64,000 bases of DNA. It comes from Oryzias latipes (taxonomy: Eukaryota > Chordata > Actinopteri > Beloniformes > Adrianichthyidae). The stretch is taken from positions 25,285,166 to 25,349,165 of the forward strand of contig NC_019867.2 in assembly GCF_002234675.1 (NCBI RefSeq). Reading direction: 5' to 3'. The stretch's first letter is position 1, and each line of letters begins with the position of its first letter. Below, piece after piece: positions 4,987-64,000 of the stretch. Under the pieces are notes generated by a model, which worked only from the letters and a program-made list of their open reading frames with translations, had not been told where the DNA came from and did not search any database. Made by a program: the position numbers and the translations under genes.

Positions 4987-5637
4987 ATGGCATTTACTTT
5001 GTATTCTCTAATCCAAGCAGCTATCTTGTGCGTCAATGCTGTGGCTGTATTACACGAAGAAAGGTTTTTAAGTAAAAGTAAGTTGCTCTTTTTTTATTTG
5101 TCTTAAACAACACTGTGGCTCCTCGTCTAGAAATTGCTTAGCGTTACGTTAGCAACTGCCAACTCACTAGGAAGACTAGCTGGAGAAAAGAAAAATATTT
5201 ACACATAAGAGTCTGTATTAACTTGTAAAATTATCTGTTTAGTTACACAAAGGCTGTCAGATATTATTTTGAGTTATTTAATCTACGCTCTTTACTAAAT
5301 CAAAACACCGGAATGATGACTGGAAACCTCAAGTGTTTAGGGGGGAAACATAACATATTTGAATCTTCTTTTTCATCTTCTTCTGGTTCAGTTGGCTGGG
5401 GGGCAGATCAAAGTGTGGGAGGATTTGGTGATGAACCAGGCGTCAAAGCACAGCTGATGAATCTCGTCCGCTCCGTAAGGACTGTGATGAGAGGTGATTG
5501 ATTGTCTCATGACAACCACACAGGTCTACACACTGTCTATAAAATGTTTTGATCGTGCTCATCTGTGTTATTACCCCACAGTGCCACTAATAGGGGTAAA
5601 TTCAGTCTGCATCGTGCTGCTGCTTCTGTTTGGATGA
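4987..5637 (+). CDS. ier3ip1: IER3IP1, small ER membrane protein
   Basis: Three exons: 4987-5077, 5392-5493 and 5582-5637, giving 82 residues, the same length as the human protein. The product reads MAFTLYSLIQAAILCVNA..., then IGWGADQSVGGFGDEP, then SQ/KAQLMNLVRSVRTVMR, and ends in a hydrophobic C-terminus (IVLLLLFG). It has an N-terminal membrane segment (about residues 1-20), a soluble loop with the GWG and GGFG motifs, and a C-terminal membrane segment (about 65-82). The family (yeast Yos1) is required for ER-to-Golgi vesicle transport; human mutations cause microcephaly with neonatal diabetes. The start is the first ATG and has the family's MAFTLYS start. The promoter side (4850-4986) is relatively CpG-rich. 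A polyadenylation signal follows at 5907-5912. Confidence 0.97.
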
Positions 5638-5906
5638 AAAAGAGTGGTCGATCAAAGTGTTCTGCCGGATGCCCATGACCTCAGGAACCCCAGTGAAGAA
5701 ACCTTTCCCGACATCCCATTCACTCGGATTCGGATCTCCTGTTTTTGATTTAACTCGGTTATTCTTAAAATAACTATACTTTCTTCCTGTAAAAAGTTAT
5801 TGGAGACATTTTAAATTTACAAGATTATAATTGTATTAGGACTCAAACTTAGAATTTACTTACCAAATGCACAATGTTAAATGTAATTTTGTTGTTGGAA
5901 AAAGTC

Positions 5907-5912
5907 AATAAA
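5907..5912 (+). terminator. ier3ip1: ier3ip1 polyadenylation signal
   Basis: AATAAA, 270 bases after the ier3ip1 stop codon, followed by a T-rich stretch. The next gene starts only about 180 bases further on, so this short interval must hold both the 3' end of ier3ip1 and the promoter of the hot-dog gene. Confidence 0.65.
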
Positions 5913-6090: not shown

Positions 6091-9000
6091 ATGAGGGGTT
6101 GCATTATCCTGTCGGCCTCTGCCTTTTCTGCATGTTTCGTTTATGTTTACATTTACCGTTCTCACAGGTTGTTAAAAACGCACGCGCTAGCTAATAAACT
6201 TCCCAGTTTGGTTTATCTCTACACTAAGTACTGGATGAGGGTTCTCACGCGGAAACCAGGGATACTGCAAGAGACAGCCGTGACGGAGTTAGAGTACGCG
6301 GTGAAGAACTGCAGGTAAACACGGACCACCTGTAGTAAATGACGTCATTTCACAAGTCCAGCTTTGCCGGGTTTAGGTGTGACTTTGTAGAAATGCTTTA
6401 GTAGTTTAACCCGCCATACTGTGCATCACTTAAAAGAATAACACGAACAACAAAAGCAATGTGGGGATTGTCATCACACACTTTATGAAAAATGTCAGCA
6501 CAAATGCTGCACACTAGCCTTCAAGCATGGTGGTAATGGTATGATGTTCAGGGCTTTTTTATTTTTATTCATTTTTTTGTACACCAGTGTCTCCATCTTT
6601 GATTTTCTAGACCTATTGACCTGCTTGACTTTCAATCAGCCCTAACCTTGTTGTGGATCTGATGATTCCAGTCTGAACATACCGAATGCAGGTGATCAGC
6701 AACAACCAGGACTGGGTTAGCTGGAAAAGGTCGGTTGGAGACCAGAACTCTAGAACCAGGACTGGAGATCACCGTCTTCATCCAGTTTTCTTGTTGTAGT
6801 TGCTACGGTATCTCTTATAACAGGAGTCCCTTGTCTGCCTTCTGTTCTCTCATTGCTGCAATTACAAGCCAACATGTTTGTGTTTCAGTTTGTCCCTTTG
6901 ATGTCCATTCAGAACCTACCGGTAAATGGTTCCCCCTTACAGAACCTGGTTCTGCTGGACGTTTCTTCCTAATGTTCCATTTAGAGGGAGTTTTCCTCTT
7001 CAGCATCACCTTGCTTAGTCCAGGAATTTAAACAGAAAACCCTTCAATGTGACCTGTTGATTACTCATGCAGACCAGTAGTATATAGTCGAGATTACCTG
7101 GACTCAATTGGATTTGAATTTCTATAATGACTAAAGCTCTGTGCTGATATTTATTTGCTTTTTGTGTTTTGCTTTGACACAGTTGTGCACCACTGCTTTA
7201 TGATTTGAAGTGAATTAATTTGAATCCATGTTGTGGTGGGACTTCAAAAGAGCTGTGGCTCCAAAATTACGGTACCTTAAGTTAGCATCTATTTTAAAGC
7301 AAAAAGACAAGTGAATTTAATTTTTTTATAACCAGAAATAAATTCAGGCGTCAACGGGGTTTAGCGAGAGATGACATTAGTGTTTTAAGTACAACAGTTG
7401 TTGAGGCAACTTGAATTGTAAACAACATTTCTAAGTCTGCTTCTCTATTTTGATCTTTATAACATTTGTTTTTCTTATTCTTTCTGTTCTGCCATGTGAG
7501 ATTGATCAGTTTCGGGATTTCACGGCAGCAGTCTGAGGATTAATCTGGTAGTTGTGACAGTCGTTCTGAACCTGCTCTGTTTTCAAGGCTGGAGAGGACA
7601 TTGTTCAGGAGGTTCTGCAGTGCTGCAGGTTACGGTTGGGATTACCCCGATGCGGAATTCAGAGACATCCCACTGTGCTTCCCAGAATTCCTGTGTTCCA
7701 AACTTCTGCTGTTGTTGCTAACTGATGAAAACTTCAGGCTCAGTCCGGCAGGTAAAAAAATCTCTTTGACTTTCAGAATACTCAGATTACGTCTCTGTAG
7801 AGTTTGTATCCTGAAAACTATAGCGTAAACATATAGAGTTTAGATTTAGATGGATTTAACAGAGAATTTTATCTTTATTTCAGAAGCACATATTGGAAAC
7901 AAATGGGGTAAAAGTCAGCTTGGTTTGATATGTTAACTTAAAATTAAGTTAAGTTTACATCATTTTCACCTGTCTAATTTAATTCATGTTTATTTTTAAA
8001 CAGTACAGATCACCTCTTCATTTTTTCCTTTGTCTGAGTCGGTTCTTTTGTAAAACACGTTGTTCTGCACAAAACCTGGATGAAAATTTAAATATTACTA
8101 AAGTTATTTTTTCATTCCTAATTCTATTAATCCATCAGGATCGATCTAAAAAGACTGGAACTTCATTGAAACATTTATTAAAAAATAAAAAATAAAGTTG
8201 AGAATGTTTTTTGAAAAAACCTTTAGGATCTTCATTTTAAGCCTTTTGAGATACATTTGAGCTGTTTTGTCAGCATCTTTGAAGACTTACGACCAAAGTC
8301 CCTGTTTTTGTGGTCGTTTGTGACGTCTTTATTAAAACTGTCTCTCTACAACAATAATTCAATGGAAAGATCCATTGTGAGGAGAAAAACGGTTACCTTT
8401 CCTGTTTTCAAAATTCTCTTTTTGCCTTCATTTTGTTTTCCTTGATGCAATACATTTAGCTGGTAATACGGTCTAAACTGTGTTTACCCTTTATTGCTTA
8501 AAGTGAGTTAATTAGCAGTCCAGGATTTTTAGGTCAAATCAAATCCACCCCTACAGCCAAATGTAAAGGTTGAATTCCTGGTATTTATCATAATAATTAG
8601 CATTTGAACAACATGTTTACCTCTTTTCCATGTTTTTGTTGAGCTCCCGCTGTGTTAATGATTTCTTTTTCATGGAATTATTGAATTTTCTGTAAATGCT
8701 AATGTTGGGATCATCAAAAACAGAGAATTCAGGATTGTGAATTCTTTTCAGGACTCCTCCGGATGCGTCAGAGCATGCAGACGCTTCAGCCAGTCGATGA
8801 GCTGAAGAAGGGTCCATTCTCGCTGCAGGCCAGGGTTCTGGGGTATCGGCAGACCCCTGCAGGGGTGGAGGTGGACATCCGCCTGTCTGCCACCTCCCGT
8901 TCTGGATCCACAGTGTGGGAAAGCGGGCTGACCTTTTTGTCTGAAAGCAGAGATTTACCCAAGAGTAGAGACCAGAGCCAGCAGCATCACGGTGATTTCA

Positions 9001-34249: not shown

Positions 34250-34946
34250 CTGCTGCTCACCAGTTGCAGACTCAGTTATTTTTTTTTTTTATTCTGGTGC
34301 GGGTCTGTTCCAGGTCTTTGGCCTTGGCCATAGTGAAGCTTGGAGTGCGACTGTCTAAGTGTGTGGACATGTGCCTTTTTATACTGATAACCAGTTCAAA
34401 CAGGTGTCATTAATACAGGAAATGAGTAGGGGATAGAAGAGCTAACAGGTCTGTGAGGAGCAGAATTCTGGCTTGTCTGAAGGTGACTTATTTTACTGAG
34501 ACATTTACCAACTATTTCATTAAAAATCCTAAAGTTTGATTTCCTGGATTCTTATCTCCCATTCTTTCATTCTTAGTTTAAGTGTATCGAAGATGAAAAT
34601 GACAGACCTCTTGTCTTTTTAGGAGGAAAATCCTCTGCTACACCTGCTTTCCCAAAAGAAAAAAAAGGAGTGCAGAAATGAAATCAATTCTGGATAAATG
34701 TGCGTTTCTCTCATATTTTTGTATAAAAACCAAAGCTCCATTCTAATTTGGAAACCACTCGTGCATGATCTCAGAGGAAAACCTTTCTGACATGCAGTGA
34801 AAACAAACCGTAAAGAAAACAAAATCTTGTTTTGCATGCTTTGCATAATGGTTTGCATGATTGACAGCGTGTTTAAAATAAGTGATGCGGTGTCTGGTTT
34901 TCCTCTGGTTAGGTGCGGCGCTCCTGTTGCTATTTTGTGGGTCACT

Positions 34947-36314
34947 ATGGCTCAAAACCAAGTGATCCTGCAGTTCCACTTCGCCACGTTTGGGGACTCC
35001 ATGCTGCAGAAGATGAACCTCCTGCGACACCAGAGACGTTTCTGCGATGTGACTGTGCGCATCAACCAGCTGGAGGTTCCAGGTCACAAGGTGGTGTTTG
35101 CTGCAGGCTCTTCGTTCCTGAGGGACCAGTTCATCCTTCAGCAAGACTCTAAAGAGGTCCAGATCTCTATGATCCAGGAGGCGGAAGTCGGTCGGCAGCT
35201 CCTGCTGTCGTGCTACACAGGCCAGCTGGAGTTTCCTGAGCTGGAATTGGTGCACTACCTGACAGTGGCAAGCTTCCTTCAAATGGGCCACATTGTGGAG
35301 CAGTGCACCCAAGCTCTGAGCAAGTTCATCAAGCCTGAGGCTTCACACCAGCTCAGGGTGGATGTGGACAGGAAGAGGGAGAAGAAGAGGCAGGAGGGTT
35401 TACCCTCGCCGGCACACAGAGAGCAGTCTCAGGTGCAGACTGTCCTGCAGAAGGAGGAGGAGGAGGTGGTGGAGGAGGAGGAGGAGGAAGACGAAGAGGA
35501 GGAAGAGATGGTGGTAGGCCAGGTTGAGGAAGACACTAATGATGACAGTGATGATGACGTTATAATCCAACCCAAAAGCCCTGTCCAGAGTTTGACCAGG
35601 CATTCCAGGCAGAGTATGGTGGAAAATGACATCACCATAGTGAAGGTGGAGTCTGTGTCAAACGCGGCAGAAACCTCCATCACGGGGAACTTCTCTGCCA
35701 CGCCTCCCACAGCTCTGCAGTCCCCTGAGCCCCAACACTCCCTCATCAACTCCACGGTGGACAGTCGCTGCAGTGAGATGGCGGCTCCACCCGGCATGCC
35801 CAGGTACCCGCTCAGCCCCCCTCCCCAGTCCCCACCCGCAGAGAAACACAGCGGCCACCAGAGGAACTATGACAAGCCGCTGCAGTGGTACCACCAGTGC
35901 CCCAAGTGTGCCCGGGTCTTCCGGCAACTGGAGAACTACGCCAACCACCTCAAAATGCACAAGCTCTTCATGTGCCTCCTGTGTGGGAAGACCTTCACGC
36001 AGAAAGGCAACCTGCACCGACACATGCGGGTGCACGCCGGCATCAAGCCCTTCCAGTGCAAAATCTGCGGCAAGACCTTCACGCAGAAGTGCTCGCTGCT
36101 GGATCACCTGAACCTGCACAGCGGGGACAAACCGCACCGCTGCAACTACTGCGAGATGGTGTTCGCCCACAAGCCGGTGCTGCGCAAGCACCTCAAACAG
36201 ATCCACGGCAAGAACAGCTTCGACAACGCAACAGAGGCAACCTGCACGAGGGGGGGCTGGAGTTTGATTTCTCCCAAGTATGAAGCTCCCGCCCCCCTTT
36301 TTAGTTTGAAATAG
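34947..36314 (+). CDS. zbtb26: ZBTB26, BTB and C2H2 zinc-finger transcription factor (C-terminus frame-broken)
   Basis: One large coding exon with acceptor TCTCTGGTTAG-type sequence ending at 34912; start at ATG 34947 (MAQNQVILQFHFATFGDS), matching the family start. Residues about 10-125 form the BTB domain (FCDVTVRINQLEVPGHKVVF), used for dimerisation and co-repressor binding. A Glu-rich acidic run follows (about 170-205), then EPQHSLINSTVDSR, typical of ZBTB26/ZBTB6, and four C2H2 fingers from about 312 to 425; the phrase QLENYANHLKMHKLFMCLLC marks ZBTB26. After KNSFDNA the annotated frame ends in an unrelated tail, whereas the +1 frame reads NRGNLHEGGLEFDFSQV to a stop at 36283, like human NERNVQDLTVDFDSF. 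One base is probably missing near 36228. It is a nuclear DNA-binding regulator. Confidence 0.93.
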   Translation: MAQNQVILQFHFATFGDSMLQKMNLLRHQRRFCDVTVRINQLEVPGHKVVFAAGSSFLRDQFILQQDSKEVQISMIQEAEVGRQLLLSCYTGQLEFPELELVHYLTVASFLQMGHIVEQCTQALSKFIKPEASHQLRVDVDRKREKKRQEGLPSPAHREQSQVQTVLQKEEEEVVEEEEEEDEEEEEMVVGQVEEDTNDDSDDDVIIQPKSPVQSLTRHSRQSMVENDITIVKVESVSNAAETSITGNFSATPPTALQSPEPQHSLINSTVDSRCSEMAAPPGMPRYPLSPPPQSPPAEKHSGHQRNYDKPLQWYHQCPKCARVFRQLENYANHLKMHKLFMCLLCGKTFTQKGNLHRHMRVHAGIKPFQCKICGKTFTQKCSLLDHLNLHSGDKPHRCNYCEMVFAHKPVLRKHLKQIHGKNSFDNATEATCTRGGWSLISPKYEAPAPLFSLK

Positions 36315-48092: not shown

Positions 48093-48104
48093 CCGTCTAT
48101 TCTT
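48093..48104. repeat. Target-site duplication, left of the GC-rich retroposon
   Basis: CCGTCTATTCTT, identical to 50204-50215 on the other side of the 2.1-kb GC-rich element. Confidence 0.85.
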
Positions 48105-50203
48105 TTTTTTTTTTTAACTTGTCCTGTCCAACAGCTAGGCAGACAGATGAGAGCTGAGGGCCTCTTGTGTTGGACATATTTTACTTTAACAAGAGGGGTT
48201 ATTAATCTTCAGACAAACCAAAGGTATGTCTGAATAAACCCCTTTTGTAATTGAGGCCAAACTTTATTAATTTCAAACATGTCTGAAAATCTTTGGTGTT
48301 GGACCGGACGGAAAAGGAAAGAGGGGAAGAAGAGAGAGGGACGTTAGAGAGAGGGGGGGTAGGGGGTGATAATAGGAAGGGAAGGGGAATAAGACCATGA
48401 AGCAGCATAAAGCAACAAGTTTACTGGTTGTTAATCATTATGGTAAGGTTCAAATGTAAAAAAAAACAAAAAAAAAAAGGGCGGAGCCTGTCCACACACA
48501 CACTCAAATGTTATAAACACACCTGTTAGTTGCAAAAATGTCCACCTGTCGACATGTACAGAAAACAGATAGTGTTCACACGCATAATTATGCCTTAAAA
48601 CCAACTAGTGTGAAATATTTCAGTCATTCAGTCTGTTGAGCTAACACCTGTGCTCAGGTGAGTGTTTATGTTCTTCTAAAATGGATGGTGGAACGTGAAA
48701 AGAAGGAGGGAGAGTGCCCAGCCATCCCCACCCCAAGAACCCCACCGCACCAGCAGCGGCAGCTGGGGACGCCACACGGGAACCGGCAGGGAACAACCGC
48801 CGCCCGGGCGACCAAGCCCGCCACCCAGGCCAGGGCCAGCAGGGCCGCCGCAAGGCCCCCAGAGCCAGAGAGCAGGGAGGCACGGAGGGAAAGAGGGCGC
48901 CGCCCCAGCCCAACCAGGAGAGCAGCCCCCCCGCCGCGCCGGGAGAACCCAACGCAGGGCCCCACCGGAGAAGGACGCCCACAGCCCCAGACGAGCACCC
49001 CACCACCACCCAGGAGTTCCGGGCATCCCCCCGCCCCAACCCCAGGTACGAGCCATGACCCCCCCAAGGGAGACCCGCTCCGCACTCCAGGCAGCCATCC
49101 GCCCGGCCCACGGTTGGTCCAGGGAGGAGCAAGGCAGGGGCCCGCCGCCCCCGCCCAGAAGGGGGGAACCCCGGGGAAAAAAGAGGGCCCACAAGGGGTG
49201 TTGTAAATATGGCCCGACCAGGCTCGGCCACAGTTGGAAATTTGGCGGGGCCCAGCACTCAGGAGCAAGGACCAGAACCCACCCCCCAGGGACACGAACA
49301 CCCCCGGCTCAGATGTAATGTGAACCCCCCCACCGCGCGGAGAGAGCACCGCCGGGCCCAGGAAGCCGGCACCCCGGGGACACAGCTGCCGTTGCAAAGG
49401 GGCCCGTACCCCCCACCAGGGAAGAGGCAGGGGACAGATGGTCCTAGGTCCCACCTTCCTTGCAAAATGTGTGTGCGTGTATGTGTGTTTGAGAGAGTGT
49501 GTGTGTGCATGTGTGTGTGTTTATGTTGGGATGTATATATTGAGGGGGGAGGGGTGTGTGTACTAAGGGGGGTGCGGTTAAAATTGGCGGGTAGGGCACT
49601 AAGGGGACGTCTCCTGATTACTCACAGTGACGTCCCCTCACCCTCCCCACCAAGGGGCCCTAAATGTCTAAGGTGCGGTTAAAATTGGCGGGTAGGGTGC
49701 TAGGAGGACATCCGCTGCTTGCTGGCAGTGATGTCCAAGCACCCCCCCTACCAAGGGCCCTACATGTCTAAGGTGCAAATAAAACCGAAAGAGGGGGGGC
49801 CCACTCCATACGGCAACCACAGGAGGGGGGTCACTGCCTAGTAAACCCCCCCCCCCCCCAAGGCTCATCGCAGGCTAAGCCCCCAACCCCCTCACCCTAT
49901 TATGAGGTTATATGAGGAAGGGGTTAAGTTGGGGACAGATGATAGACTGTCCCCCGGTGGTCAAACAGCCGTCCCCCGCCCCCCCCCCAGCAAGGGGGCC
50001 AGGCCCACCCAGCCCCGGGGCCCCACCCCCGGAGGCGCAGACACCCCAGGCCCAGCACCACCACCCCCACACAGAGAGAGGGGAGCCAGAAAGCGCCGCC
50101 CCCCCCCGGAGCAAGCCCAGGCCCCCACCCCCAAACGCCGGCCCTAGAAGAGCTCTGGTCAGGCCTCGACGGGACCGAGGCAGCCAACCGGCCGGGGAAA
50201 CCG
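48105..50203 (-). mobile_element. GC-rich poly(A) retroposon, copy 1
   Basis: A 2.1-kb insert bounded by identical 12-bp repeats. The left edge is a T run (48103-48115), i.e. a poly(A) tail if the element is read on the minus strand. It is far richer in GC than its surroundings, with proline- and glycine-coding open frames on both strands, none resembling a reverse transcriptase, capsid or transposase. Two 100-bp tandem units sit at 49572-49772 and a GT-rich patch at 49465-49560. Target duplication plus poly(A) points to movement by target-primed reverse transcription, using an enzyme from a LINE elsewhere. It could be an internally deleted LINE or a composite non-autonomous element. The copy at 58.35 kb is collinear with it. 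Confidence 0.75.
49572..49772. repeat. Two tandem units of about 100 bp within the GC-rich retroposon
   Basis: Unit 1 is 49572-49672 and unit 2 is 49673-49772; both start GTGCGGTTAAAATTGGCGGG and end in GGGCCCTA-A/C-ATGTCTAAG. A third start (GTGCAAATAAAAC) follows. The same pair occurs in copy 2 at about 59844-60042. Confidence 0.85.
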
Positions 50204-50215
50204 CCGTCTATTCTT
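50204..50215. repeat. Target-site duplication, right of the GC-rich retroposon
   Basis: CCGTCTATTCTT, identical to 48093-48104. Confidence 0.85.
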
Positions 50216-50304
50216 ATTTATAAATTTATTTTCTGTCTTATAGGGTGGGGTCAGGGGTCAGAAAGCATTGTGTATTATCATATTGACTCAGTCAATGTCT
50301 TTAA

Positions 50305-50508
50305 CCCTTGTGCTATCCTAGGCACTTTAACGTTGGGAGTTGGGTCATCTAGACCCACTAGACAGTGCGTAAAACCTTTTTCTTCAATGATTTGTGATCT
50401 TCTCTGGTGTCCATGGATTACATGAAATCTTTCCACCTTTATCCACCTTTGTCGTGGTAGGGAGAACACGTCAATGCAAGGGTGGGGTCATCTAAGATAG
50501 CACAAGGG
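50305..50508. mobile_element. piggyBac-type MITE, copy 1
   Basis: Ends CCCTTGTGCTATCCTA and (complement of right) CCCTTGTGCTATCTTA, a 16-bp inverted repeat with one mismatch, flanked on both sides by TTAA (50301-50304 and 50509-50512). TTAA target use and a CCC start are hallmarks of piggyBac elements. It is 204 bp long and has no transposase. The interior includes the self-complementary GGGTCATCTAGACCC. Confidence 0.9.
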
Positions 50509-50589
50509 TTAAATTAGTTTTGTTTTTTAGTTGAAAAATAATTCTTTATTTGTGTGACAAATGTAGAAAAGGTGTTTTGTAAAAATAGT

Positions 50590-50987: not shown

Positions 50988-54908
<3,921 letters not shown>

Positions 54909-55886: not shown

Positions 55887-56808
55887 TCATGAGTTCTTGT
55901 TGGCGGTGATGTCTTTGTTTTTCTGTGTCCATCGTCTTTTGCTCTTTCTGTCCGTCTCCTTGTTAGGATGTGACAGTTTCCTCAGCAGCTCTGCAACAAA
56001 ACAAGTCCGTCATTCTGTTTTTGTCAAGCAGCAAATGTGACCTTTGACCAGCAGGGGGCCTCAGACAGCTGCTTCTTTACCAGCCGTCTTTATTACCTGC
56101 TAACTCAGGTTGACCTGAGCTGTAGTTGTTTAGGAGGGAGACATATTCCTGACTTCCAGAGGAATCATCTCCTGGAAAACATGAATCCCCGAGAACATAT
56201 TACTTCTAGCAGTAATCAGTCCGCACATCAAGCAGTCTGTGACACACCAAGAACTCTCCCCTCCAACTTAAAAATAGATCTGTTTTTTATGAAGACATTA
56301 GAAATAAATGAATGTCATTATTCAGCCTGGATATTTTCATCCTGATTTGACTTAAAAACATGTCAATGATCTGAGCTGACACTTCTCCATTAGCCGATTT
56401 GATGGACTCACGGAGGACCTGGAGCGGAACGTAGAACCGCCTCTCTGTCAGCACACTGGAGGCCAGATCCCGGCTGTGCTGCTTGGCCTCCAGGTTCATG
56501 ACTCGCCCGCTGCTGTCCATCAGGTCCACACAGTCTGTGAGGGAAAAACAGGAGATTTGATCATGCTGACTAGATTTATGGACTAATGCTGCCTGATTTT
56601 GGTTTCCCACAAGAGTTCACCTTCAAAACCCAGACCACACTTCTCCTTCAAATGTTGGATGAAATTGACTAGTTTACAGTTGAGATTAAGCAACTCCCTC
56701 CTGTCATCTGCCATCGAAACCATATGTGTCAATTCAGCAACATTCTGCGAAAACACAGCACTCAGAGCAGCATGGGAACTCACCTCCAATCAGGATTGTC
56801 ACAAACAT
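55887..56808 (-). CDS. c22orf15: C22orf15-like protein, function unknown
   Basis: Five minus-strand exons: 56784-56808, 56621-56707, 56412-56534, 56097-56171 and 55887-55990, giving 137 residues. The protein begins MFVTILIGDDRRELLNLNCK, in register with human MFIKVMFGAGCSVLVNTSCR, continues LVNFIQHLKEKCGLGFEDCV, then LTERRFYVPLQVLR, YVSLLNNYSSGQPELAELLR and KLS, matching human LLKERAIYVLVRII and YESLLENLDDHYPELAEEL. It ends with a very basic tail (KSKRRWTQKNKDITANKNS). The N-terminal part may adopt a ubiquitin-like fold; that is inference. Function is unknown. The exon 2 acceptor is the internal CAG at 56708-56710, chosen because it alone keeps the human register. Same strand as upb1, 1 kb upstream; in human both lie in 22q11.23. 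Confidence 0.88.
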
Positions 56809-58340
56809 GCTTTGCTCCTGGAAGCTGGTGAACTCCAAAATTTCTGACAGTGCTTAGAGCTGAAGATGCTATTTACTAAAGAGAGCCCATGAGGTCTTTA
56901 TAGACCAGGCATGATGGGGCATCAGTAAAAGAGTTTAGAGGCTTGGTTTTCATGCTTGCACACACACCCCTTTACCAGAAGAAGGCTCGTAAACGAGGAG
57001 ACAAAGGTCTGCAGATGTTTGTATCCATGGAGTCTGCAAACACAGATTCTTGTGCTCTCCACCTCGGAGGAAAGTGACGCAGACACAGACAATTGGGATT
57101 TTATGGTTTCCTGCAGATGTTGGTCCTTCTGAGGCTAAAACACCACTGGGCAAAATGTTTCAAATGGTTTATTACACTGAACGGAAAAATCCGATATTAC
57201 ATTTTCTCGTTATGTTTCCTTTAGAAATGATGGTTGGAAAATGTTTTTATAGAGAACTGTATCTGCCATTCCCTTTTTGCTGTGACTCAAATTTAATTTA
57301 ATGTATTTTGATTGCACTGATGAAGCTTTATGTGTAACGGAAGGGGACCTTGGAAATTTCTTTGGAAAGAGGTTTCCTTTTAACTCAAATTAACCCTTGT
57401 GCTATTCTAGCATTAACATTGGGAGTTGGGTCATCTAGACCCACTAGACAGTGCACTGAACCTTTCTTCTTCAGTGATCTGTGATCTTCACTGGTGTCCA
57501 TGGATTACATGAAATCCTCATTACCTTTATCCACCTTTGTCATGGTAGGGAGAACACGTCAATGTAAGGGGGGGGTCATGTAAGATGGCACAAGGCTTAA
57601 ACAGAAAAGTGAGGTAGATTTTTTTAAACAAAATGTAGTTAAAGGGGCATCTTTTTTAAAGAACAAACTGGAAAAATGTTTTCAAATGATCCCCAGTGCA
57701 TGTCCTGTTTGTATTGTTCAATAAGATTTTCTATTTTTTTACCATCAAAGTCTACATTCCGAGGGTGCAAAATGCCAACCTTGAATTCGCCTATAAGTCA
57801 AATGCATATTTATGTTTTGCAAAAGATGATTACATTAACTGTTATTTAAAAGAAAATATTAGAGATGTTGCCTTGCTTTGATTTTTGTACAGTAGTTTTT
57901 ACAATTCTACTACTTTTTGCGCACTTCTCTTTTTTATTTATTGTTATTTTTACACACGTTTTTAGATCATAATCTTAAGCAGCATTTAAGTTTGAAAATT
58001 GATGTTGACAATATTTTGTTTCTGACATTTAGAGGGAAAGATAAGAAAAAAATAAAATAAAAAACCAAGAAATATTCAAAAAGGAGGCCTTTTCATGCCC
58101 CAGACCAAATTTATTACCCCACCCAGTGCACCCACGGTCTATTATAGTCCTGTTCTCTTTCTAATGCCTACACATTCAGTGTCAGATACACATATGCACA
58201 CACAAAAAAAATACAAATTTAAATATACACTTAGAATCCCTTTAGGGGTCACAGGTCTGCTGGAGCCTATCCCAGGTACTGTTGGGTGCAACCTGAATAT
58301 GTTGCAGGAACACACACACACATCCACACCTGAGGCAATT
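56809..58340. other. Intergenic stretch between the c22orf15-like gene and retroposon copy 2
   Basis: The c22orf15-like promoter should lie just right of 56808. Besides the piggyBac-type MITE at 57394-57596 I see only AT-rich unique sequence and a CA-rich patch near 58195 and 58310. Confidence 0.4.
57394..57596. mobile_element. piggyBac-type MITE, copy 2
   Basis: Collinear with the copy at 50305 (for example TTGGGTCATCTAGACCCACT and GGTAGGGAGAACACGTCAAT). Ends CCCTTGTGCTATTCTA and (complement) GCCTTGTGCCATCTTA, flanked by TTAA at 57390-57393 and 57597-57600. Confidence 0.88.
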
Positions 58341-58349
58341 TTTTTTTTA

Positions 58350-60195
58350 ATTTTTTTTTTAACTTGTCCTGTCCAACAGCTGGGCAGACAGATGAGAGCT
58401 GAGGGCCTCTTGTGTTGGACATATTTTACTTTAACAACAGGGGTTAGGAATCTTCTGACAAACCAGAGGTATGTCTGAATAAACCCCTTTTGTAATCGAG
58501 GCCAGACTTTATTCATTTTAATCGTATTTGAAAATCTTTTGTGTTGGACCGGACGGAAAAGGAAAGAAAGGAAGAAAAGAGAGGGATGTTAGAAAGGGGG
58601 GGGATAGGAGGGTGATCGGGGGGGGGGGGGGGGGGGCAAAACCATGAAGCAGCATAAAGCAACAACCTACTGGATGTTTATCATTAGGGTGAGGTTCAGA
58701 TGTAATACAAAGGGCAGGGCCTGTCCACAAACCCACTCAAATGTTATAAACACACCTGCTAGCTGCAAAAATGTCCACATGTCAACATGCACACAATACA
58801 GATAGTGTTCACACACGCATACTTATGCCTTCAAACCAACTAGTGTGAAATATTTCATTCAATCAAGTAAACTATTTATGTAAATGTGACCTATTACTGT
58901 GCTCAAGGGAGTGTTTATGTTCTTCTAAAATGGATGGTGGAATGTGAAAAGAAGGAGGGAGAGTGCCCAGCCATCCCTACACCAAGACCCCCACCGCAGC
59001 AGCTGCGGCAGCCAGAACCCCCTAATGCCACACGGCAGCAAGCAGAGAACAACCGCCCCCCGGGCGATCACATCTGCCACCCAGGCCAGGGCCATCAGGA
59101 CCGCCCCGAGGCCCCCAGAGCCAGAGAGCTGAGAGGCACGGGGGGACAGAGAGCGCTGCCCCAGCCCAACCAGGAAAGCAGCCCCCCCCCGCCGCGCCAG
59201 GAGGGCCCAACGACGGGCCCCACCCGAGAAGGGTGCCCACAGCCCCAGACGAGCACCTCATCACCACCCAGGAGTTCTGGGCATCCCCCCGCCCCAACCC
59301 CGGGTACGAGCCATGACCACCCAAGGGAGACCCGCTCACGCGCTCCAGGCAGCTACCCACCCGGCCCACGGTTGGTCCAGAAGGGAGCAAGGCAGGGGCC
59401 AGCCATCCCCGCCCAGAAGGGGGACACCCCAGGGAGAAGGGCCCACAAGGGTTGTTGTAAACGTGGCCCGACCAGGCTCGGCCACAGTTGGAAATTTGGG
59501 GAGGCCCAGCACCCGGGGGCAAGGACCAGAACCCACTCCACAGGGACACGGACACCCCTGGCTCAGGTGTGATGTGATCCCCGGCTTCTGGCCTTGCCAG
59601 AAGGCTCAGGGATCCCTCTCCCTGCGTTGACAGAGGGCCACCGGGCCCAGGAAACCAGCACCCAGGGGACATGGCCGCCGTTGCCAAGGGCCCAGTACCC
59701 CCTACCAGGGATGGGGTAGGGGACAGATGGTCCAAGGTCCCACCTTCCTTGCGAAATGCGTGTGTGAGGGTGTGAGTGTGCATGTGTGTGTGTTTATGTT
59801 GGAATATATATTTTGAGGGGTGAAGGGTGTGTGTACTAAGAGTGTGCAGTAAAAATTGGTGGGTAGGGCACTGAGGGGACATCTCCTGATTACTCACAGT
59901 GATGTCCCATCACCCTCCCCACCAAGGGGCCCTAAATCTCTGAGGTGCGGTTAAAATTGGTGGGTAGGGCGCTAAGAGGAGATCTGCTGCTTGCTGGCAG
60001 TGATGTCCAAGCACCCCCTGTACCAACGGCCCTACATGTCTAAGATGCAAATAAAACTGAGAGAGGGGGGGGCCATTCCATACGGCAACCATGGGAGGGG
60101 AACCACTGCCAAGTAGCTCCTCCCCCCAAGGTGCATCGCAGCCTAAACCCCCCACCCCCTCACACTAATATGAGATTATATGAGGAAGGTTAAGT
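58350..60195 (-). mobile_element. GC-rich poly(A) retroposon, copy 2 (5' truncated)
   Basis: Same order of text as copy 1: T run, CTTGTCCTGTCCAACAGCT, GACAGATGAGAGCTGAGGGC, TTGGACCGGACGGAAAAGGA, ATGTTCTTCTAAAATGGATG, then the proline-coding GC block and the two 100-bp tandem units, ending at TATATGAGGAAGGTTAAGTT. It lacks the last roughly 270 bp of copy 1 (49935-50203), which would be the 5' end on the minus strand, the usual truncation of retroposed DNA. The two copies differ at many single positions and small gaps. A target duplication is not evident. Confidence 0.75.
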
Positions 60196-60222
60196 TATTC
60201 TTTTTCTATGAAGTTATTTTTT

Positions 60223-62025: not shown

Positions 62026-63013
62026 TCAGGACAACCTGTCCGGCTCACAGAAGCAGCTCTTGCTGCTTTGTCTGCTGAACAGTGACGAGACCTGGGCCGA
62101 GCTGAGGTTCTGTTTCAGAACCTCTGGATCAGCACCGTCCTGATCTTGCTCTTCGAGCTGTGAATGATGGATCAGAGGAACCTCAGTCTGAGAGAGGGCC
62201 GGCACCGCACAGGGACTAGAACAGTGAGACATGACAAAAGACAGAGGGAGGTGTGACACGGATACCAGACCGCCCCCTACAGGAGACGTCTGTGTGGCGC
62301 AGCACGGAGAGTTCTTGCTGCCACTGTGCTCTTTGAGGAGGTCAAAGCTGTTGGCCTTGAATCTGATGGAGTCTGTGATGCTGTTGTGAGTGGAGTTGTG
62401 CTCGCTCCAGCTGTTCTCCAGCGACTGCTGCTGGCCCAGGATGTGGCGCCGGATGATCTTTCGGAATGTTTTCCGAAACTCGCGGATGCGGTAGGCGTAG
62501 ATAAAGGGGTTGATGACCGAGTTGGCATGAGAGAGGATGATCGCCACGTACAGGATCGCCAGATGAGGGCGGTGGCAGTGAGGACAGAAGAGGGTGAAGC
62601 AGTTGATGATGTGCAGGGGCAGCCAGCAGACTGCAAACAGACCCACGATAATGGCCAAGGACTTGGCAGCCTGGACTTCTTTCTGCAGAGTAGAGCGCGA
62701 CTTCTCTCCGTGGAGGGCTTTCACCTCCATCAGCTTGAGCTGATGCCGTGCTGCCATGAAGATGCACAGGTAGATGGCCAGCATCAGAACCAGGGGGATC
62801 AGGACACAGGCAAAAAAGTTAAAGTAGACCATGTACTCCATGTCGACCACGTCCTCAAACAGGCAGTGCATCAGGCCGGACGGGCAGGTGCCGTTGGCAC
62901 TCTTTGGGAGCCTGTGCCAGCCCATCATGGGCGTCAGACCGATGACGATGGACAAAGCCCAGCAGATGGCGATGATTCCTCGAGCCCGCTGGCTTGTCAC
63001 CAAACTGTTGTAC
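62026..63013 (-). CDS. adora2a: ADORA2A, adenosine A2A receptor (last coding exon)
   Basis: A single minus-strand exon with acceptor at 63014-63015 encodes about 328 residues from the second intracellular loop to the end ([20 protein letters not shown]). It covers membrane helices 4 to 7: TM4 [20 protein letters not shown]; loop 2 with Cys; TM5 [21 protein letters not shown]6 [20 protein letters not shown] with the CWLP motif; TM7 [16 protein letters not shown] with NPxxY. The long Ser-rich tail follows. In the A2A receptor TM6 Asn (HIIN) and TM7 Ser-His bind adenosine; all are present. It couples to Gs and raises cAMP. The split at R|Y in loop 2 is the conserved intron position of adenosine receptors, so exon 1 (TM1-3) must lie beyond 64000. 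The tail is about as long as the human one but diverged. Confidence 0.97.
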
Positions 63014-64000
63014 CTAAAAATGCAGACGGTAAAAATATTGAGCATAAAAAAAAACAAATCATCAGGAATACACGATGGTGAAATAAACATGCAAATCGTG
63101 TTGCTTGTTTCCCCCCGGAGCTAAAGAAGAGAAACAAAAACTAAGACAGTTTTCCAGGATTCCTTGACGGAATGACTCTATTTTGGGTTGGCCTGATCCA
63201 CAGTGTGGGAGAGCAGCTGAGATGTTTGGCTTGTTTTTAGCACATTCTTAGGATGTTAAAGTGCAAAGGTTAACACTGCAAAAACAACCCCCATCAGGGA
63301 TGCAAAAAAAAGAAAAAAAAGAAGAGGAAACCTCTGCGTGGAAAAGAGTAAACACTAAAACTGAAAGACAGAGTGACGCTTCCTGGCGTGGGGTTCTTCT
63401 GGCGCAACAAGAGGAGGAGGTGTTGCATCGCTGGGAGACAAACATCTGAAAATATGTTCCAAGGAAATTAAAGGGTAGTGAGACTGAAGGTCTCTGAGGG
63501 AATTCAGAGTCTGTATAACCAATTAGAGCGATATTTATATGATTTCTCTTGGGGGTGGGGGAACCCTCATGGGACTTGTGATTTCTAGAGGAACATCTTT
63601 AGCCAAAAAAAAAAAAAAAAGTGTCTGTTTGTGGGGAGCTAGGAAAAACTTAAACCCAATACAGGAAATTTATGACATATAATTACCAGTATGAATCCCT
63701 TTGAGACAAGTATGTTGTAATATTTGGCTATATAAATAAAATTGAATTGAATTTAAACAAAATAATAAATCACCCATAAAACTGTAATGCCACTAAACTC
63801 ATGGTGAATTTGCCCCATTGACTGCACATGAGAACTAGACTGAGTGACTCCTCCCCAAATGCATTCAAACCCAGAAGAACCTGTTTGTTCAATAAAGCCA
63901 AAATCCCACTGACTTCTGTTGAGAAATAAACAGCTACTCAGTCGTCCACCCTTTTGATGCTCTTGCTAATGCAATTTTTTTTTCGTGATATTTTTTTCTT
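63014..64000 (-). other. adora2a: adora2a intron (to the window edge)
   Basis: Intron between the loop-2 split and the unseen first coding exon. No exon is visible. Near 63697-63756 is an L2-type tail. Confidence 0.6.
63697..63756 (+). repeat. L2-type LINE 3' tail
   Basis: CCCTTTGAGACAAGTATG followed by TTTGGCTATATAAATAAAAT and TGAATTGAATTT, the standard 3' end of fish L2 LINEs. Confidence 0.7.

Follow-up and report, generated by a model that had tools for sequence, protein, structure and literature searches.

The SVA (SINE-VNTR-Alu) elements of hominids combine a GC-rich block, tandem units and a poly(A) tail within a length of about 2 kb. Short elements are also known that derive from LINEs by internal deletion; these so-called SIDEs include Persaeus, a derivative of CR1 (PMC6740152). 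For the LINE-1 (L1) clade itself, two reports give a GC content of 36.3 +/- 2.1% for the ORF2 of fish L1 (PMC7140322) and of 46.3% for the 3' UTRs of mammalian L1 (PMC9099904). Our literature searches listed nothing on point about SVA-like elements in fish, non-autonomous LINEs or the untranslated regions of fish L1; some of the queries were too broad or badly worded, so that such work may nevertheless have been published. Here, we describe two insertions in a stretch of 64,000 nucleotides from the medaka, Oryzias latipes (contig NC_019867.2; hereafter the window). We conclude, with very little doubt, that both are dead copies, truncated at the 5' end, of an autonomous LINE of the L1 clade in this fish. 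Both lie wholly within the long GC-rich 3' UTR of that LINE, and neither is composite or internally deleted; the insertion is real but ordinary.

The first insertion (copy 1; 48105..50203, minus strand) is flanked by an exact 12-mer, CCGTCTATTCTT, which occurs exactly twice in the window: at 48093..48104, the left target-site duplication on the 3' side of the sense strand, and at 50204..50215, the right duplication on the 5' side. With 0.01 expected in the window, two copies of this 12-mer appeared in none of 100 shuffles. Between the duplications lie a T run and then about 2.09 kb, with a GC content of 66% over 48700-50203 and 40% over 48106-48700. Since the T run stands at the left edge on the plus strand, the sense strand of the element is the minus strand and the T run is its poly(A) tail. 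The initial annotation had described an exact 12-bp duplication around some 2.1 kb of GC-rich DNA with a T run at one edge, and this description holds. Within the GC-rich part, two tandem 101-bp units, and no more, occupy 49571..49776 (minus strand); the same pair of units is present in copy 2 (59844-60049) and in L022, the full-length relative considered below.

The second insertion (copy 2, minus strand) derives from the same LINE 3' UTR, is likewise truncated at its 5' end and is older. Compared with the whole L022 element, whose positions 6097-7909 it matches at 83% identity, it extends over 58341..60189; by pairwise comparison with copy 1, it extends over 58351-60196. The shortened collinear copy that had been noticed 8-10 kb away is confirmed: it is 83% identical to copy 1, collinear with it, and ends early on the sense 5' side, the side away from the T run. 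The flanks of copy 2 gave no clear target duplication: the 12-mers and 14-mers that came closest have 2-3 mismatches and consist largely of T.

The two copies differ at 237 of 1785 aligned columns. Mismatches affect 33% of the 164 CpG-context columns versus 11% of the remaining columns, a roughly threefold excess that fits decay of methylated CpG after insertion. The counts per 50-column bin are more uneven than in 2000 permutations, and some parts of the source elements may thus have been under constraint. One of the best conserved stretches is the 3' terminal block that adjoins the poly(A) (48105..48202, minus strand; 3 mismatches in 98 columns), with p = 0.03 for the minimum over 80-column windows and no significance with windows of 40, 50, 60, 70 or 100 columns. 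This block contains the arms GTCCAACA...TGTTGGAC, and a conserved 3' hairpin was considered and rejected: the arms are present in both copies but fold no better than shuffles. On the sense strand, C/T differences between the copies (95) outnumber A/G differences (56; 48105-50203 against 58341-60196).

Two further candidates were set aside. A coding body is ruled out by the absence of any Pfam family in the tested frames of the window copies, by the lack of codon-phase bias in the substitutions between copy 1 and copy 2, and by several indels between them that break the frame, their lengths not being multiples of three. An LTR-like pair around the 8-kb interior is ruled out because copy 1 is bounded by a duplication and tail of its own, and copy 2 has a different, shorter end. 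Ten of the 47 frames listed for that interior were scanned and gave host-like gene exons or nothing. Rfam gave no match across the window. As expected for a fish repeat, exact patterns of the element had no match in viral, bacterial or archaeal contigs, and blastn found none in phages or plasmids. Short DNA strings of the element were not found in paper texts.

Several neighbouring features can be recognized. Carbon-nitrogen hydrolase exons, presumably those of upb1, lie at 51748-53394 (minus strand), with the likely last coding exon near 51068; copy 1 is located less than 1 kb downstream of the stop of this upb1-like gene, on the same strand. IL2RG-like exons (56287-56789) and an adenosine A2A receptor exon (62029-63120) are also on the minus strand, and a BTB zinc-finger gene (34791-36311) is on the plus strand. 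A pair of short repeats, 88% identical (50301-50513 and 57390-57601), resembles a MITE, tentatively of the piggyBac type; the ends of its first copy read TTAACCCTTGTGCTATC / GATAGCACAAGGGTTAA.

What kind of family do the two copies represent? The initial annotation favored an SVA-like composite retroposon. Such an element would be non-autonomous, assembled from modules of separate origin and mobilized in trans by a LINE, and the window copies do offer grounds for this reading in their GC-rich body, two tandem units, poly(A), duplication and lack of Pfam matches. The genomic relatives of copy 1, however, provide no family-specific 5' end. The genome from which the window comes (734,051,031 bases in 25 contigs) was searched with copy 1, and 40 of 4014 first-look candidates were scored, one of them the window copy itself. 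All 39 of the other scored matches are 95-98% identical to copy 1 and reach its 5' edge, extending to query position 2112 or 2114 where the sense 5' edge of copy 1 is at 2111. Upstream of this edge, each of the 19 relatives studied with 1.5-kb flanks (L002-L020) shares sequence with the others, over distances from about 65 nt (L004) to the full 1.5 kb available; the upstream flank of the window locus (L001) is not common to them. It follows that copy 1 stops early and the family does not. This continuation in 19 of 19 relatives argues against a separate family that starts at 50203 with its own promoter, and also against the view that the copies bearing ORF2 are chance fusions.

Stretches of 10 kb were read at 19 of the 39 places, 12 of them picked from the top 20 and 7 being the last of the ranking. 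All 19 are collinear with one element, for which the L022 copy (7909 nt without its tail) serves as the reference. Seven start at element position 1-3 (L022, L026, L028, L030, L031, L035 and L039); the remaining 12 have inner starts that are all different, two of them (1952 and 1957) lying 5 nt apart. ORF2 sequence is present in 18 of the 19 places, and the L032 copy starts at 5549, past the ORF2 stop, much like copy 1. The final 225 nt of the element are missing from L038. The L021 element is split by a second family member: the nested copy (L021:1472-4037) is 91.6% identical to the L022 3' UTR and sits in a host element 99.7-99.8% identical to L022, which suggests recent insertion of more than one 3' UTR lineage.

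These counts also bear on the idea that the window copies are processed copies of a host non-coding or messenger RNA. Such an origin would account for the poly(A), the duplication and the lack of LINE protein in the copies themselves; it is contradicted by the 39 near-identical relatives and by the LINE ORF2 sequence in 18 of the 19 read at 10 kb, and we give it practically no credence.

In the sense direction, the 7909-nt element is made up of an ORF1-like frame, an ORF2 of 1,256 aa and a 3' UTR of 2.64 kb. The place of ORF1 in L022 is taken by a 288-codon stretch that is open from stop to stop. The 288-aa frame gives weak matches below the cutoff, mostly to coiled-coil families and none to an RNA-binding family, and it has no convincing relative among solved structures (best E 0.055); its product may be a protein like the ORF1 protein of fish L1. 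Among the 12 loci listed, the 1256-codon ORF2 is open at full length in L022, L026 and L028. The L022 ORF2 holds the Pfam families Exo_endo_phos (1.5e-17) and RVT_1 (1.1e-41) and, among solved structures, is closest to human L1 ORF2p, which it matches over residues 11-1179 (3.6e-166), the best R2 protein reaching 2.7e-19. The probable assignment to the L1 clade draws on this ORF content and similarity. Differences among the three full-length ORF2 frames fall mainly in third codon positions (positions 1/2/3: 5/6/19 for L022-L026, 2/8/19 for L022-L028 and 3/6/8 for L026-L028). The three ORF2 pairs that involve L031 show 127-133 differences, evenly spread, probably because of an indel that breaks the position-by-position comparison, given that the L031 frame is shorter.

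When the ORF2 of the family was used as a tblastn query, it found zero matches in the window. The earlier remark that no reverse transcriptase is seen was thus correct for the window and wrong for the family; since relatives that encode the enzyme exist, its absence is a property of the window. Longer collinear members that code for reverse transcriptase are what the genome search with the element turned up, and this finding, named in advance as one that refutes the SVA-like reading, does refute it in those terms.

The position of the GC-rich DNA within the element is equally informative. From the ORF2 stop to the tail, the L022 element has 2638 nt with a GC content of 62.7% (69% over the first 2 kb), compared to 37.6% for ORF2. 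The open frames in the GC-rich 3' UTR match no Pfam family, and they show no codon-phase bias when compared with a 91.6% identical relative or, as far as copy 2 extends, with copy 2. Copy 1 aligns with L022 (L022:7389-9496) in a single alignment of 2109 columns at 98.2% identity, from element position 5813 to the end, and begins 541 nt downstream of the ORF2 stop. The main alternative in the initial annotation was an internally deleted LINE, with a 5' UTR joined to a 3' UTR as in insect SIDEs. A GC-rich block that precedes an AT-rich tail could indeed be a 5' UTR, and mammalian L1 5' UTRs are described as GC-rich in one report (PMC9099904). In L022, however, the ORF2 stop comes before the GC-rich block, and because copy 1 is collinear, in that one alignment, with a relative of full length whose 3' end is uninterrupted, no internal deletion is encountered; for both window copies, this alternative is very hard to sustain. 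The same result weighs on the SVA-like reading, as the whole body of copy 1, together with its tandem units, corresponds without a break, at 98% identity, to the 3' UTR of a copy that bears ORF2. With relatives that encode reverse transcriptase collinear with the copies, a composite element mobilized in trans has become extremely improbable. The SVA-like look arises because the protein-coding part was left behind, so that the 3' UTR alone is in view.

How would truncated copies of an autonomous LINE have come to lie in the window? At a nicked target, reverse transcription of the LINE RNA would have started from the poly(A) end, the process called target-primed reverse transcription, and would have halted within the long 3' UTR, such that the ORFs were never copied in. 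The observations behind this scheme are the poly(A), the duplication around copy 1, the collinear copies that code for endonuclease and reverse transcriptase, and the staggered 5' ends; the mechanism of priming, and the supply of the enzyme by the LINE itself, would follow from established LINE biology. The original proposal that a LINE enzyme inserted an RNA copy is well supported by the poly(A), the 12-bp duplication and the staggered 5' ends of the relatives.

Target duplications of 10-19 nt after the A-rich tail, counted without a shuffle control, are found in 13 of 16 testable relatives, at distances of up to 33 nt from the common 5' start; the 16 exclude L034, L038 and L023, the last because of its short flank. 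The search found none for the other three, L022, L025 and L028. Combined with a common 3' end and 5' ends that scatter, these duplications give the textbook picture of target-primed reverse transcription that ends early. A duplication that starts with A is expected for an L1-type endonuclease. The duplications of the relatives begin with A on the sense strand, some of these A's possibly belonging to the tail. Extra nucleotides separate the duplication from the shared start in L026 (3), L030 (33), L031 (27), L035 (7) and L039 (13), and four of these five end in GGA. The L028 copy repeats roughly the initial 20 nt of the element. The extra 5' nucleotides and the L028 repeat point to an uncertain or variable 5' start.

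The relatives of copy 2 tell whether the older layer has the same source. In a genome search with copy 2, in which 40 of 6804 candidates were scored, the 39 other best places are 83-89% identical to it. Twelve relatives (L040-L051) were chosen among the matches that reach the edge of copy 2, and all 12 have homologous sequence past this 5' edge, ending at varied points, which places the older layer in the same LINE. The extension amounts to at least 61 nt in 11 of the 12, with L040 marginal (14 nt plus a weakly matching G-rich segment). L051 and L044 both have a deletion in the stretch read; the one in L051 joins on 68 nt from the end of ORF2. Three of these 12 older copies (L043, L047 and L049) stop at or near one G tract at element position 5894-5911, a possible site at which reverse transcription stalls.

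Perhaps the 2.64-kb GC-rich 3' UTR is selected rather than ballast, for example in the control of RNA export or as a stalling zone, a proposal that we consider unlikely. A stalling zone in the 3' UTR would make many new copies harmless 3' UTR fragments. The LINE family may already be in Repbase/Dfam. In the medaka, 14.3% of the genome was assigned to 'unclassified' repeats in one survey (PMC4746887). A LINE whose 3' UTR exceeds 2 kb and is opposite to its ORF2 in base composition sets an annotation trap: its 5'-truncated copies resemble an unrelated non-coding family.

L1 3' UTRs are usually shorter than 2.64 kb, and it is mildly odd for an AT-rich fish L1 to carry one that is both long and GC-rich; our few literature searches listed nothing on this combination. 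The window copies are similar to SVA in their GC-rich block, tandem units, poly(A) and length of about 2 kb, a matter of resemblance only; they differ in that the body is the 3' UTR of one LINE, with two units, no foreign module seen and no separate 5' end. They are like SIDEs, as described in PMC6740152, in LINE origin and absence of coding capacity, and differ in being plain 5' truncations. In the composition figures cited above, mammalian L1 3' UTRs have 46.3% GC (PMC9099904) against 63% over 2.64 kb here, whereas the ORF2 is close to that of fish L1, with 37.6% GC against 36.3 +/- 2.1% (PMC7140322). The closest known system is the L1 clade. This LINE has in common with it a single ORF2 in which endonuclease precedes reverse transcriptase and which resembles human L1 ORF2p along its full length, as well as poly(A), target duplications, 5' truncation and an upstream frame with weak coiled-coil matches.
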